NCBI GenBank assembly: GCA_030613705.1
Contig: JAUWLJ010000035.1
Coordinates: 1 to 11,221 of the forward strand
Origin: Chloroflexota bacterium
Lineage (GTDB): Bacteria > Chloroflexota > Anaerolineae > Anaerolineales > UBA4823
Direction: 5' to 3'
DNA length: 11,221 bases
Part shown: in pieces, positions 1,970-11,221 of the stretch
Layout: every line of letters starts with the position of its first letter
Numbering within the stretch: the first letter of the stretch is position 1
Made by a program: the position numbers and the translations under genes
The notes under the pieces: generated by a model
What the model saw: only the letters and a program-made list of their open reading frames with translations
Database searches by the model: none
What the model was told of the DNA's origin: nothing

Positions 1970-2842
1970 ATGCCTGAAGGGGTTTTTGGATTTCAACATA
2001 TCGCTGTCGCTCCTCATCCTGAAATTTCAGTTGCCGTTGAGGAAACAGAACACATCGTATCCTACTTGCGAGATCAAGGCCTACGAGTTACCTCTGGTCT
2101 GTTATACGATGAAAATTTGCGCCATCAGATAATTCGTGGCGATTTTGATTTATTAATTGCTTTGGGGGGCGACGGAACCATGTTGCGTGCTGGTCACCTT
2201 TGCGGACCATATGGAGTCCCCGTTCTAGGAATTAACATGGGTCGCTTCGGATTTCTGATGGAAATTCGGCAAGATGGCTGGAGAGAGGCATTCCAACGAC
2301 TACTGCAAGGAGATTTTTGGTCTGAAAAGCGGATGATGCTCAGCGCCAAACAAGTCAGGGGTGACCAGATTCTCGGGGAGTGGGATGTTGTCAACGAAGC
2401 GGTTGTCTGTAGGGGTGGTATTGTCCGTCCGATTCAATTGGAAGTCAACGTCGATGGTCGCTTCCTGGCGACCTATGTTGCGGATGGAATGATCTCTGCG
2501 ACGCCGACAGGATCAACCGCTTATGCCCTGGCGGCAGGAGGCCCGATCTTACCGCCTGAACTTCGTACAATTTTACTAGTACCAATCGCTCCTCATCTTT
2601 CGATTGATAGAGGAATCGTCCTTGCAGAAGGCTCTTCAGTGGCGATCAAAGTGCACACCACTCACCAGGCTGTGCTCAGTGTGGACGGCCAGCCACCAAT
2701 AGAATTAGCGGATGGAGATTACGTCAATATATGTGCTAGCAGCCATACACTTCAGTTTATTCGATTTCAGGATCCTGGCTATTTTTACCGAAACCTGACA
2801 CCGCATATGAATCAAAATCCATCCACTGGAATTACTCGATGA
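1970..2842 (+). CDS. nadK: NAD kinase (ATP/polyphosphate-dependent NAD+ phosphorylation to NADP+)
   Basis: This enzyme phosphorylates NAD+ to NADP+ in the cytoplasm and sets the NADP(H) pool. The family fingerprint is clear: GGDGT at about residues 66-70 (numbered from the ATG at 1970) in the phosphate-binding loop, GINMGRFGFL (87-96), VVNEAV (140-145, NE motif), ADGMISATPTGSTAYALAAG (171-190) with the TGSTAY loop, and LSVDGQ (236-241). The length, about 290 residues, is normal. The start is uncertain. An upstream in-frame ATG at 1943 would add 9 residues but has only AGG two bases away. The ATG at 1970 sits just after a TATAAT and places the first beta strand (QHIAVAPHP) about where I expect it. 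The stop overlaps the next gene's ATG (ATGA at 2839-2842), so the two are translationally coupled. Confidence 0.95.
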   Translation: MPEGVFGFQHIAVAPHPEISVAVEETEHIVSYLRDQGLRVTSGLLYDENLRHQIIRGDFDLLIALGGDGTMLRAGHLCGPYGVPVLGINMGRFGFLMEIRQDGWREAFQRLLQGDFWSEKRMMLSAKQVRGDQILGEWDVVNEAVVCRGGIVRPIQLEVNVDGRFLATYVADGMISATPTGSTAYALAAGGPILPPELRTILLVPIAPHLSIDRGIVLAEGSSVAIKVHTTHQAVLSVDGQPPIELADGDYVNICASSHTLQFIRFQDPGYFYRNLTPHMNQNPSTGITR

Positions 2843-3357
2843 CTACAGAACACCCTACCATTTATTGTGAAAATCACCCAGATGTTGAGACAACTTTACG
2901 CTGTAATCGCTGCGAGAAGCCAATATGCGTTAAATGCGCTGTATTGACCGAAACGGGATATCGATGTACAGAATGTGTGCGCGCCCAGCAAAAAACCTTC
3001 GATACAGCGACCTGGCTCGATTACATCCTTGCCATAGGTATCGCTGTCATCCTGACTTACATAGGTAGTTTATTAACCACAAGGATTGGATTCTTCACAA
3101 TCTTCGTCGCTCCCATCGCTGGGATTGTAATTGCTGAAGCAATTCGCTTTGCCATCCGTCGCCGTCGATCTAAACGGCTGTTTCAAGCTACCGCAGCTGC
3201 AACCGCCTTTGGTGGTATATTGCCTATCTTGTCGGTGTTGGCTTTGACCGGATTAGCAATCGGTTTTGTCGGTTTATTCTATTTTATTTGGCCAGTTGTT
3301 TATACTGTCTTAGTGACATCCACAGTATATTATCGATTGGCAGGTATCCGGCTTTGA
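2839..3357 (+). CDS. B-box-type zinc finger membrane protein
   Basis: This 172-residue protein has two parts. The N-terminal 46 residues contain eight regularly spaced metal ligands (C10, H13, C22, C25, C30, C33, C43, C46), as in B-box-type zinc fingers that bind two zinc ions. The rest is hydrophobic: probable membrane helices at about 60-80, 84-106 and 120-165 (the last probably two helices), with a very basic loop RRRRSKR (107-113). The finger is expected on the cytoplasmic side. Its ATG overlaps the NAD kinase stop (ATGA). Twenty-two bases separate it from recN. B-box proteins with membrane segments are, in my experience, common in Chloroflexota, but their function is unknown; protein-protein contact is likelier than DNA binding. 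Confidence 0.82.
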   Translation: MTTEHPTIYCENHPDVETTLRCNRCEKPICVKCAVLTETGYRCTECVRAQQKTFDTATWLDYILAIGIAVILTYIGSLLTTRIGFFTIFVAPIAGIVIAEAIRFAIRRRRSKRLFQATAAATAFGGILPILSVLALTGLAIGFVGLFYFIWPVVYTVLVTSTVYYRLAGIRL

Positions 3358-8633: not shown

Positions 8634-8650
8634 ATTTATGTCAACGTTTT

Positions 8651-8708
8651 GGCAACGCCTGCATGGTATAGTCAGTAACAATATATTACCAATTACCTGC
8701 AGGTTGCC
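8651..8708 (+). other. Imperfect long hairpin in the 3' untranslated region
   Basis: GGCAA (8651-8655) pairs with TTGCC (8704-8708), CCTGCA (8658-8663) with TGCAGG (8698-8703), and GGTA (8665-8668) with TACC (8694-8697). This gives 15 pairs with a CG bulge and a single T bulge. A small inner hairpin GTAA/TTAC (8675-8678/8686-8689) is possible. TGCAGG could instead pair with a second CCTGCA at 8728-8733, giving two exclusive folds. No T run follows, so it is not itself a standard terminator. It may be part of a structured mRNA tail or a small RNA ending at the terminator at 8780. Confidence 0.4.
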
Positions 8709-8735
8709 GGGGTCTCAAACTAGGGGTCCTGCACG

Positions 8736-8780
8736 AGCCGACACCAGTTTCGGGGATAAACTGGTGTCGGCTTTGCTTTT
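8736..8780 (+). terminator. Strong intrinsic terminator after the regulator gene
   Basis: A perfect 15-base stem pairs AGCCGACACCAGTTT (8736-8750) with AAACTGGTGTCGGCT (8758-8772) around a 7-base loop (8751-8757). TTGCTTTT follows at 8773-8780. It ends the nadK-recN-regulator group and separates it from the PBP-like gene. On the opposite strand only a weak T-run equivalent would be present, so it reads mainly in the + direction. Confidence 0.9.
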
Positions 8781-8827
8781 CAAATAATTCGCTAATTCAG
8801 ACAAATAAAGTATATATTTAATTCGTG

Positions 8828-8839: not shown

Positions 8840-11221
8840 ATGTCTGCAATCCCGCAAATCATCAAATCTCGGCATCGTCGTGAAAAACGAGAGGGCGACA
8901 GGTTTATTAAGCGACTCAGCCGATTTGCATTACTTGTCCTGATAACCCTCAGCCTGATCTTCTCGATCTTTATCATAACAATTTCAATCTTATTTGCCAA
9001 TTTGTCAAAAAGCCTCCCTCCACTGGAGACTCTCCCACTGATACTCGAGTCACCTGATGGTCAGCTGCCCCCACCTACCCGATTACTCGACCAAACTGGG
9101 CAACACCTAATTGCGATCCTAGAGAATTCAAACGCGAGCGGGCGAAAATATTTATCACTTCAAGGTGATACCCAAGCTCAAATTCCTAATTCCCTGATAT
9201 TGGCAACTATTGCCTCAACAGACCCGAGTTTTTGGACAAATCGTGGATTCACTTGGAATGGCATCCAAACCGGAACTCAGTCAACAATTACTCAGAAACT
9301 AATAAGCGACAACCTGTTATGGGATCAGTCTCCATCCTTCAACCGATCAATTGTCGAACGCATATTAGCCGCCCAGGCGAATGCACAATATGGTCGTGAA
9401 CGAATTCTTGAATGGTACCTGAATTCTACATATTATGGAAATTTAGCCTATGGTGCTGATGCAGCTGCGCGAATTTATTTTGGAAAACACGCCACAAGGT
9501 TAAGCCTGGCCGAAGCTGCGATTCTTGCTGCAGCTGCAGAATCTCCCTCTCTCAATCCAATCGATGCACCCACAGCTGCTCTTGCTGCAAAAGACAAAAT
9601 CCTCCATCAAATGTTTGCGCAAGAGATGATTTCCACCGACGAACTTAGAGCAGCTTTAGATGAGCAGCTCGAATTTAAACCTACCCAAGATTTTTCCTTC
9701 GATCTCGCCCCAGATTTCACAAGATTAGCAGTCGAACAAGCATCTCGATTTATCCCACTTGATCGGATCTTGCGTGGTGGTTTGAATATCATTTCCTCAT
9801 TAGATTACGATTTACAAAACCAAGTTGAATGCGCAACTTCTACACAAATCTCCAGAATAACCAATGCAGACACCAGGGATATTGTTGAACATGGGTTAGA
9901 AGAATGCGAGATGGCACGTTTGCTGCCCGCGCTGCAACAAGAGTCACGCCTCCCAGATCTTTCAATAGCCTCGAGCGTGATCGTCATGGATCCCACAAAC
10001 GGCCAAATACTGGCGATGGTCGGTGGAATTGAACCTGAATTAAATCCAAATCAACTACCGGGCCGACCACCCGGATCAATTCTGACCCCATTTATATATT
10101 TGACATCATTCTCCCGAGGTTCCAGCCCCGCCTCCTTGCTTTGGGATGTACCTGCCAGTTTGGTCGAAGGTTTCACTGATATCCAGAATCCAGATGGTCA
10201 ATTCCACGGTCCAGTAAGTGTGCGGACTGCTTTGGCGAATGATTATTTGGTCCCTACCTTTCAGGTACTTACTCAACTGGATCCCGACCAAGTTTGGCAC
10301 ACTTCCCAACAGCTCGGTTTAGGAAGTCTTCAAATCCAATCAGAAGAAGGAGCCTACCGCTTACCATTCGAGGGAGGAGAGGCTACTCTGCTCGAGCTTA
10401 GCCAGGCATACGGAGTACTTGCTGCACAGGGTATTTTAGCTGGAATGTCCCAAGATTCTGATCTCTCACAGAACCAGAATTCAGCCATCAATCCGCAAGT
10501 GATTCTGAAAGTTGTGGATAATTCGGGAAACGAATGGTTGGATTGTACTGGTCAAATCACTGAATGTCGCACTATCAAGCGTCCAGTAATATCTCCCCAA
10601 TTAGCTTATATTGTCACAGATATCCTCAGTGATGAGACCGCTCGCTGGCCGAGCCTTGGACATCCAAACCCCTTAGAGATTGGACGACCTGCCGCTGCAA
10701 AGATCGGCAGTACAACCACCCGGATTGATTCCTGGACTGTCGGCTATACACCCGATTTGGTTTCCGCTGTGTGGTTAGGAACGGAGGACTCAAACCAGAT
10801 GATAGAGATCTCTCCAAATTGGGCAGCGGGGCTTTGGCATGCTGTTATGCAATATGCAACGAGGGGTAAACCTGTTGAGGATTTTATGCCTCCACCAGGT
10901 ATAAGCGAAATGAAAGTCTGTGATCCATCAGGATTGCTACCCACCGATGAATGTCCCCGCATTGTGAATGAGGTTTTTACAATTGGTAATGAACCCACTC
11001 AACCAGACAATCTATTTCAAAATTACCTAATCAACCGCGAAACGGGTCGTTTGGCCACAATCTTCACTTCTCCTGCATTAATTGATGAGAAAGTATTTAT
11101 GGTTGTGCCTCCCGAGGCAGTAGAATGGGCGAAAGAAGCAAATATCCCTATGATTCCTGAATCCTACGATATTCTTAATATCAACCCTTTCCAATCCATG
11201 AATGCACGAATTACATCTCCG
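8840..11221 (+). CDS. Class A penicillin-binding protein-like protein with degenerate active sites (partial, runs off the window)
   Basis: The frame is open for 794 codons to the window end. A basic cytoplasmic tail (1-27) and one transmembrane helix (about 28-53) precede a GT51 glycosyltransferase-like domain (about 110-270), a transpeptidase-like domain (about 375-670) and the start of a C-terminal extracellular region. The fold is unmistakable: STITQKL (148-154), EWYLNSTYYGNLAYGADAAA (191-210), RPPGS (409-413), GPVSVRTALAN (457-467), WTVGYTPDLVSAVWLG (632-647). The catalytic residues are not. The GT51 motif-1 glutamate is T127 (ASTDPSF for AxEDxxF), and about 15 residues before STITQ appear deleted. 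The transpeptidase SxxK reads SILT (413-416), SxN reads DYL (468-470), and KTGT reads KIGS (621-624). Only E173, S413 and K621 remain of the key residues. With no stop codons it is probably a maintained pseudoenzyme anchored in the cell envelope. Conserved extracellular cysteines are C569/C576 and C694/C705. Confidence 0.88.
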   Translation, partial: MSAIPQIIKSRHRREKREGDRFIKRLSRFALLVLITLSLIFSIFIITISILFANLSKSLPPLETLPLILESPDGQLPPPTRLLDQTGQHLIAILENSNASGRKYLSLQGDTQAQIPNSLILATIASTDPSFWTNRGFTWNGIQTGTQSTITQKLISDNLLWDQSPSFNRSIVERILAAQANAQYGRERILEWYLNSTYYGNLAYGADAAARIYFGKHATRLSLAEAAILAAAAESPSLNPIDAPTAALAAKDKILHQMFAQEMISTDELRAALDEQLEFKPTQDFSFDLAPDFTRLAVEQASRFIPLDRILRGGLNIISSLDYDLQNQVECATSTQISRITNADTRDIVEHGLEECEMARLLPALQQESRLPDLSIASSVIVMDPTNGQILAMVGGIEPELNPNQLPGRPPGSILTPFIYLTSFSRGSSPASLLWDVPASLVEGFTDIQNPDGQFHGPVSVRTALANDYLVPTFQVLTQLDPDQVWHTSQQLGLGSLQIQSEEGAYRLPFEGGEATLLELSQAYGVLAAQGILAGMSQDSDLSQNQNSAINPQVILKVVDNSGNEWLDCTGQITECRTIKRPVISPQLAYIVTDILSDETARWPSLGHPNPLEIGRPAAAKIGSTTTRIDSWTVGYTPDLVSAVWLGTEDSNQMIEISPNWAAGLWHAVMQYATRGKPVEDFMPPPGISEMKVCDPSGLLPTDECPRIVNEVFTIGNEPTQPDNLFQNYLINRETGRLATIFTSPALIDEKVFMVVPPEAVEWAKEANIPMIPESYDILNINPFQSMNARITSP

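Follow-up and report, generated by a model that had tools for sequence, protein, structure and literature searches.

A full-length relative of class A penicillin-binding proteins with both active sites altered in many Anaerolineae

Why would a bacterium keep a complete cell-wall synthase whose catalytic motifs have all been altered? The question is raised by the last gene of an 11,221-nucleotide stretch of Chloroflexota DNA (hereafter the window), which is an entire contig (JAUWLJ010000035.1 of assembly GCA_030613705.1; G000:C246 in our numbering) from an Anaerolineae genome that is 58% complete and 2.24 Mb in size. The gene lies on the plus strand at 8840-11221 and encodes a relative of class A penicillin-binding proteins (PBPs), the bifunctional enzymes that combine a GT51 (transglycosylase) domain with a transpeptidase domain. 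Its protein is incomplete, as the contig ends after residue 794; the relatives listed are mostly about 960-980 amino acids long and carry a C-terminal Big_7 Ig-like domain. A preliminary description, made from the window sequence alone, had read SILT (residues 413-416), DYL (468-470) and KIGS (621-624) where class A PBPs have SxxK, SxN and KTG, and had proposed a kept, non-catalytic protein. Reading the frame from the ATG at 8840 gives the same three motifs with the same flanks. Our analysis suggests that many Anaerolineae keep such a full-length class A PBP relative, without the key residues of either active site, for a structural or regulatory job.

Active-site residues in the closest homologues

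We searched 5.8 billion proteins and obtained 1860 relatives, of which the best 120 were examined together with the window protein (n=121). The substitutions are conserved throughout this set. None of the 121 sequences keeps the SxxK lysine (T in 104, S in 15, A in 2), while the serine position (S413 in the window) holds S in 97, T in 23 and L in one. Both the serine and the asparagine of SxN are replaced in all 121 sequences: position 468 is D in 119, N in one and E in one, and the asparagine position is L in 101 and N in none. At the KTG threonine position we found I in 93 sequences, L in 13, M in 7, T in 3 and other residues in 5; the lysine (K621) and glycine (G623) of this motif are each retained in 121/121. 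Several positions are fixed or nearly so, namely N467, W435 and W632 (121/121 each), D468 (119/121) and Y469 (118/121).

The GT51 half is altered too. Catalysis by GT51 domains involves a glutamate in motif 1, residues of motif 2 and a lysine in motif 3. The motif-1 glutamate is absent from all 119 homologue rows with a letter at that position (T127 in the window), and is present in 96 of the 187 rows of a wider alignment. Motif 2 reads QSTITQK in the window versus GGSTITQQ or GGSSITQQ in copies with intact motifs, and the motif-3 lysine is replaced by S170. Because identical replacements occur in many separate sequences, neither chance nor sequencing error is their cause. Judged by these residues, the transpeptidase is almost certainly inactive, and it is very likely that the GT51-like and transpeptidase-like halves both are. 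Together with the retained KTG lysine and glycine and the repeated loss described below, the state of the GT51 half goes beyond the preliminary description.

Distribution and number of losses

Altered copies are widespread around the window. Among the 61 genomes nearest to it (its own included; hand tally, as for the window's family below), 43 have altered transpeptidase motifs, 7 a live orthologue, that is, one with intact motifs, and 11 are unreadable there. In the window's own family (37 genomes), the corresponding numbers are 30, 0 and 7, and two of the seven genomes without a readable transpeptidase motif (G025 and G036) show a GT51 piece alone, which is altered. The preliminary description had singled out intact orthologues at the same locus as the observation that would speak for recent decay; none was found among the 30 readable motifs of these 37 genomes, and all 30 are altered. 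Intact homologues live in other families, as the ancestral form. An apparent uvrA-PBP fusion (L078, 7086-10223, in G003) and a truncated PBP (L070, 7783-9249, in G004) proved to be scaffold joins over runs of N; G003, where a uvrA-like piece and a PBP piece are joined in this way, was left out of the counts, and G004 contributes the single motif visible in it. Longilinea arvoryzae KOME-1, a named strain that we take to be cultured, was found to carry one full-length altered copy (L035, 5893-8772; 959 amino acids) and one canonical class A PBP with intact motifs (L234).

If paralogues are counted, a profile of the altered family has a match in every one of the 296 genomes that were sampled from the class. 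Among the class-wide matches listed, 90 loci were read (window included), of which 55 are live and 35 altered, hereafter dead; these 90 are the top-scoring of at least 150 match rows (hand count) and form a non-random sample. A search of the phylum gave 17 loci read outside the class, all 17 live. Some live genomes carry more than one live relative (L242, L243, L244, L245 and L252, besides the first copies). The live orthologue on which Pfam was run (L081) has the same architecture as the dead copies, C-terminal Big_7 included. The class A PBP profile matches none of the seven small, near-complete genomes listed for family f72 of the same phylum; these are perhaps wall-less organisms, and likening them to Dehalococcoides is a guess.

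By the residues tested, 81 rows of the 187-row alignment are intact in both domains, 105 are transpeptidase-dead and one is live but truncated (L077). Ninety of the dead rows lack the GT51 glutamate and 15 have it, with motif 2 or 3 altered or the sequence truncated; the least clear case for this half is L188 (family f47), which retains the glutamate and the tested glutamine. Later reads added two dead f47 copies (L233 and L246). Dead copies fall into three groups: a main clade that contains the window (NDYL type), a group from families f33 and f60 with other letters, and part of f47. Of the 105 dead rows, the conservation counts leave out L002 (part of the window) and L078, as well as the five most degenerate rows; the remainder comprises 81 main-clade, 12 f33/f60 and 5 f47 rows. 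In those five, L044 (G037), L055 (G044), L056 (G057), L073 (G040) and L074 (G048), nearly all motif letters are gone and the frame is open over 790-959 amino acids.

The rooted tree places the live state at the ancestor. A 49-row tree built without the motif columns and rooted on live paralogues implies three losses, each forced by starred branches, although the tree was made by a quick method and its stars merit less trust. FastTree on all 187 rows also gives three losses, two of them forced. Approximately unbiased (AU) tests, run under LG+F+G4, a simpler model, reject a single origin of all dead copies (p=3.5e-4), a joint origin of the main clade and f47 (p=3.5e-4) and a joint origin of f33/f60 and f47 (p=7.1e-6). 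By contrast, they do not reject a shared origin of the main clade and f33/f60 (p=0.086), so that two losses are the safe minimum. The motifs were thus lost at least twice and probably three times. The f47 dead rows differ from one another (SALQ with NSYN kept; TAFT with NDYH and KTG kept; TALN with GYE), and one further f47 copy (L250, in G345) is intermediate: it retains the SxxK lysine, has Thr for the SxxK serine, GYY for SxN and TTG for KTG, and is altered in GT51 motifs 2 and 3. Such variation is what would be expected of decay at different stages. The fuller statement, that an orthologous bifunctional synthase was turned into a kept, doubly inactive protein at least two and probably three times within the Anaerolineae, seems to us evenly poised between right and wrong.

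Constraint, fold and possible roles

Between the window and the nearest genome, the ratio of nonsynonymous to synonymous substitution rates (dN/dS) is 0.26 over the whole gene, 0.18 in the GT51-like domain and 0.25 in the transpeptidase-like domain, compared with 0.09-0.27 in seven neighbouring genes. Five other pairs of dead copies gave 0.09-0.19 and six live pairs 0.04-0.11, two sets that are roughly comparable at best, because synonymous divergence (dS) exceeds 1 in three of the live pairs. The pattern of conservation along the protein has changed as well. Mean pairwise identity among live orthologues is highest in the transpeptidase and GT51 domains (0.63 each) and falls to 0.51 in the post-transpeptidase segment, 0.47 in the middle beta region (mid-beta) and 0.41 in Big_7; the corresponding values in the main dead clade are 0.48, 0.50, 0.52, 0.53 and 0.37. 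Sites conserved in at least 90% of live copies are retained by the main dead copies (rows with a letter) at 23/50 positions in GT51 and 38/94 in the transpeptidase domain, and at 21/31, 10/10 and 11/12 in the post-transpeptidase, mid-beta and Big_7 regions. In the main dead clade, the enzyme domains are no longer ahead of the C-terminal region in conservation.

The window protein is a class A PBP homologue by descent and fold. Its best NCBIfam match is TIGR02074 (PBP_1a_fam), followed by TIGR02073 (PBP_1c). The TIGR02074 score (282.2) is below the curated cut-off of 508.75, which is not diagnostic, as three live orthologues (461-497) and the genome's own canonical PBP (483) also fall below it. 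AlphaFold2, run on 81 rows for a full-length orthologue (from G001), gave a mean predicted local distance difference test score (pLDDT) of 86.5 and a predicted template modelling score of 0.71, and the solved structures that best match this model are class A PBPs. Modelled alone, the C-terminal 292 residues reach a pLDDT of 94.1, and their last two thirds resemble tandem fibronectin/Ig-like modules. The class A fold is thus predicted to be retained whole. The model shows a long N-terminal helix that should carry the membrane anchor, and a hydrophobic stretch was read in the sequence; the helix would insert into the membrane. The kept, non-catalytic relative of the preliminary description is supported at the level of sequence by the family-wide conservation of the altered motifs, a dN/dS below 1 and this predicted fold.

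These observations suggest a three-part account. By sequence, both active sites lack residues needed by the family mechanism; the protein is retained under coding constraint; and it may act non-catalytically at the membrane, where its likeliest role would be that of a structural or allosteric partner or a scaffold in wall synthesis, or of a wall tether. A polymer of the wall or surface, or else a partner protein, may be held by its C-terminal beta domains; the chemistry would fall to a canonical class A PBP and to pairs of class B PBPs with SEDS (shape, elongation, division and sporulation) proteins. As for the route, the live ancestor probably had a non-catalytic job already, so that catalysis could be lost repeatedly and the protein kept. 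Such canonical enzymes are present. GT51 matches in 30 genomes of the family form two classes (187-214 versus 39-108 bits), and the high-scoring, canonical class, whose motifs were read in part of the set, was found in 28 of the 30 genomes (hand tally); the two low-scoring pieces on G013:C214 seem to belong to a single split gene and not to a pseudo-PBP. In the window's own genome, C321 carries a canonical PBP, and there are three PBP_dimer and two SEDS matches. Overall, we lean slightly towards the view that the gene encodes a pseudo-class-A PBP of ancient origin, inactive in both halves, which persists as a scaffold or regulatory partner of wall synthesis anchored in the membrane.

Several observations weigh against this account. 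The annotated neighbourhood contains no recognised wall-synthesis gene, and one family genome (G019, 84% complete) has a low-scoring GT51 match alone and another (G020) none. The first 75 codons have a dN/dS of 0.66 (window versus nearest genome, with few changes). Apart from the N-terminus, no domain of the main dead clade is less conserved than Big_7 (mean identity 0.37), and 15 full-length rows of that clade, nearly all from family f12, lack it. No shift of constraint is seen in f33/f60 (GT51 0.51, post-transpeptidase 0.45), and in f47 the transpeptidase domain remains the most conserved (0.59). As the GT51 and transpeptidase domains are still constrained, the function need not reside in the C-terminus. 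Finally, because position 413 is Ser or Thr in 120 of the 121 homologues and K621 is retained in all of them, there is some room for changed chemistry.

Among other roles, there is a small chance that the protein is a sensor of envelope damage, that is, a dead PBP that binds wall precursors or antibiotics without chemistry and passes a signal to genes nearby (those for the HtrA-like protease, zf-HC2 protein and ECF sigma factor described below). Neighbours were counted in 45 annotated stretches, which include live loci, paralogues, short pieces and repeats of one genome. In the window's family, the usual order is NAD kinase, B-box protein, RecN, (STAND regulator) and pseudo-PBP, followed on the opposite strand by genes for an HtrA-like protease, a NUDIX protein, a zf-HC2 protein (anti-sigma-like) and an extracytoplasmic function (ECF) sigma factor. 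ECF sigma (16/45), zf-HC2 (16/45) and HtrA-like genes (12/45) mostly follow the dead gene directly on its downstream side in that family, and this neighbourhood makes a sensor role worth testing. However, these genes are on the opposite strand, the upstream NAD kinase (18/45) and RecN (19/45) are equally well conserved, and the neighbourhood is missing at dead copies of f12 and f14 (L060, L089 and L090) and at L034, L035 and L037. Downstream of the pseudo-PBP at one locus (L084, 11964-16041, minus strand), the HtrA-like trypsin-PDZ, NUDIX, zf-HC2 (weak) and ECF sigma genes are accompanied by a DUF3054 gene, and the group is possibly an envelope-stress cassette.

Slightly less probable still is a repurposed enzyme, in which a cleft formed with S/T413, the new N467-D468 pair and K621 may catalyse another reaction or form a covalent bond with a new ligand. 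In its favour, the main clade shows strong, newly acquired constraint around the cleft: N467, K621, W435 and W632 are invariant, D468 is nearly so and position 416 is Thr or Ser in 119/121. Moreover, Asp at the SxN serine position recurs across the losses (81/81 main-clade, 2/2 f60, 2/5 f47 and 1/10 f33 rows). Yet the putative nucleophile is not fixed, either in the 121 homologues or in the main clade (S in 51 and T in 30 of 81 rows), and in f33 its position holds P in 6 rows, V in 2, Q in 1 and T in 1. K621 is found in 0/10 f33, 0/2 f60 and 2/5 f47 rows, and the separate losses share no new catalytic set.

We consider it quite unlikely that the transpeptidase alone is dead and that the GT51 domain still polymerises lipid II through a displaced catalytic acid. 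The residue after the lost glutamate is indeed acidic in most homologues (D in 90 and E in 28 of 119), Glu173 of motif 3 is present in 108/119, motifs 4-5 are apparently retained, and the motif-1 glutamate itself is present in all f33 and f60 rows and in two f47 rows. Against this, that glutamate is missing from every one of the 119 rows, the second glutamine of motif 2 is R or K in 103/119, the motif-3 lysine is found in none of the 80 main dead rows with a letter, and scores drop to the lower of the two GT51 classes.

Least probable by far is a decaying gene or assembly error, with motifs lost by relaxed selection in a protein on its way out. In its favour, the enzyme domains are less conserved than in live copies, members in G037, G040, G044, G048 and G057 are even more degenerate, and six dead-type rows among the class-wide profile matches listed carry one stop within the matched stretch, but recent decay and sequencing error are ruled out by the conserved altered letters together with dN/dS (0.09-0.26), the non-catalytic residues are invariant, the whole-fold model is confident (pLDDT 86.5), and for the family decay is contradicted by age and constraint.

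Window features and known counterparts

Coordinates of the pseudo-PBP gene and its parts, and of a conserved element upstream of it, are given in Table 1.

Table 1. Features of the window, with positions in nucleotides
Feature	Position	Strand	Basis or remark
Conserved intergenic element upstream of the pseudo-PBP gene	8640-8785	+	Strong terminator-like hairpin, arms 8736-8750 and 8758-8772
Pseudo-class-A PBP gene	8840-11221	+	ATG at 8840, GTG in frame at 8825; first 794 codons
Long N-terminal helix, candidate membrane anchor	8849-9010	+	Window residues 4-57, equivalent to helix 9-62 in the model of the orthologue from G001
GT51 (transglycosylase)-like domain, residues 113-258	9176-9613	+	Pfam PF00912, 101.7 bits (cut-off 27)
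Codon 127, Thr replacing the GT51 catalytic Glu	9218-9220	+	Alignment to homologues
Transpeptidase-like domain, residues 379-655	9974-10804	+	Pfam PF00905, 28.7 bits (cut-off 22.1), residues 379-538; fold match; end at 655 placed by hand
SILT replacing SxxK, residues 413-416	10076-10087	+	Translation and alignment
NDYL replacing xSxN, residues 467-470	10238-10249	+	DYL (468-470) at 10241-10249
KIGS replacing KTG(T/S), residues 621-624	10700-10711	+	Translation and alignment
Post-transpeptidase segment, residues 656-794	10805-11221	+	Conservation in dead copies equal to that in live ones

The upstream element is present in all five genomes of the genus and in none of the 33 others of the family. 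It contains a conserved stem (TGCAGG..CCTGCA) and a perfect hairpin of 15 bp, in which paired changes from genome to genome were noted by eye. A TATAGT-like box was seen by eye and a promoter scan found none on the plus strand; no Rfam family reached its gathering score. The element is a candidate small RNA, or a leader with a terminator-like end.

Three other genes of the window deserve mention. The product of 491-1117 matches the Translin family (PF01997, 31.3 bits, cut-off 25.9), which is better known from eukaryotes and archaea; it lies beside a DUF3467 gene and occurs in 12 of the 45 annotated stretches. A stand-alone Cas4-like PD-(D/E)XK protein (PF01930, 47.1 bits) is encoded at 1366-1875; the Pfam scan covered six proteins of the window and gave no other Cas-like hit. 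A B-box zinc finger (PF00643, 25.0 bits, cut-off 24.1) is found in the putative membrane protein encoded at 2839-3354, between NAD kinase and RecN, whose gene occurs in 18 of the 45 stretches.

How does the protein compare with known systems? It shares domain order, fold and descent with the bifunctional class A PBPs (PBP1a, PBP1b and PBP1c), but lacks the catalytic residues of both domains. Live Anaerolineae orthologues with Big_7 (e.g. L116) have the same architecture, checked with Pfam on one of them, and a conserved C-terminal region, whereas their catalytic motifs are intact. BlaR1 and MecR1 are penicillin sensors that use a PBP-like domain and need an acylatable SxxK with both its Ser and its Lys; the lysine is missing from the window protein. 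Inactive LytM-domain proteins such as EnvC and NlpD are regulators as well, with a fold unrelated to that of PBPs. Another of them, DipM, is described as a natural pseudoenzyme of wall metabolism that regulates active enzymes (PMC10336132); these regulators resemble the present protein in being natural pseudoenzymes, but they act on wall-degrading enzymes, not on synthases. As a precedent, another report describes Bacillus subtilis PBP2b as essential with dispensable catalysis, presumably because it activates FtsW, and presents PBP2b and Clostridioides difficile SpoVD/PBP3 as PBPs with a job in a synthase complex that is independent of chemistry of their own (PMC12713402). These differ in that, as described there, their inactivity was engineered (SpoVD natively has SxxK) and they are class B partners of SEDS proteins. 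In the open-licence literature, judged mostly by title and the start of the abstract, we found no description of a class A PBP family that is naturally inactive in both domains. As a probable pseudoenzyme of known fold, the protein is unusual in the loss of both activities, in its breadth and in its repeated origin.

Annotators should take note: the window protein scores above the Pfam cut-offs, and such proteins are labelled 'penicillin-binding protein' or 'membrane carboxypeptidase' by their sources, although they probably do not make wall or form a covalent bond with penicillin. Work on class A PBPs treats them as enzymes and as drug targets; a widespread natural family that retains the whole protein with both active sites lost, next to a live sister form, makes a non-catalytic role testable. 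If this repeated conversion into a kept, doubly inactive protein is real, this class A PBP architecture would have a non-catalytic job (as a scaffold, an allosteric activator or a tether to the wall) that predates both of its activities and is separable from them.
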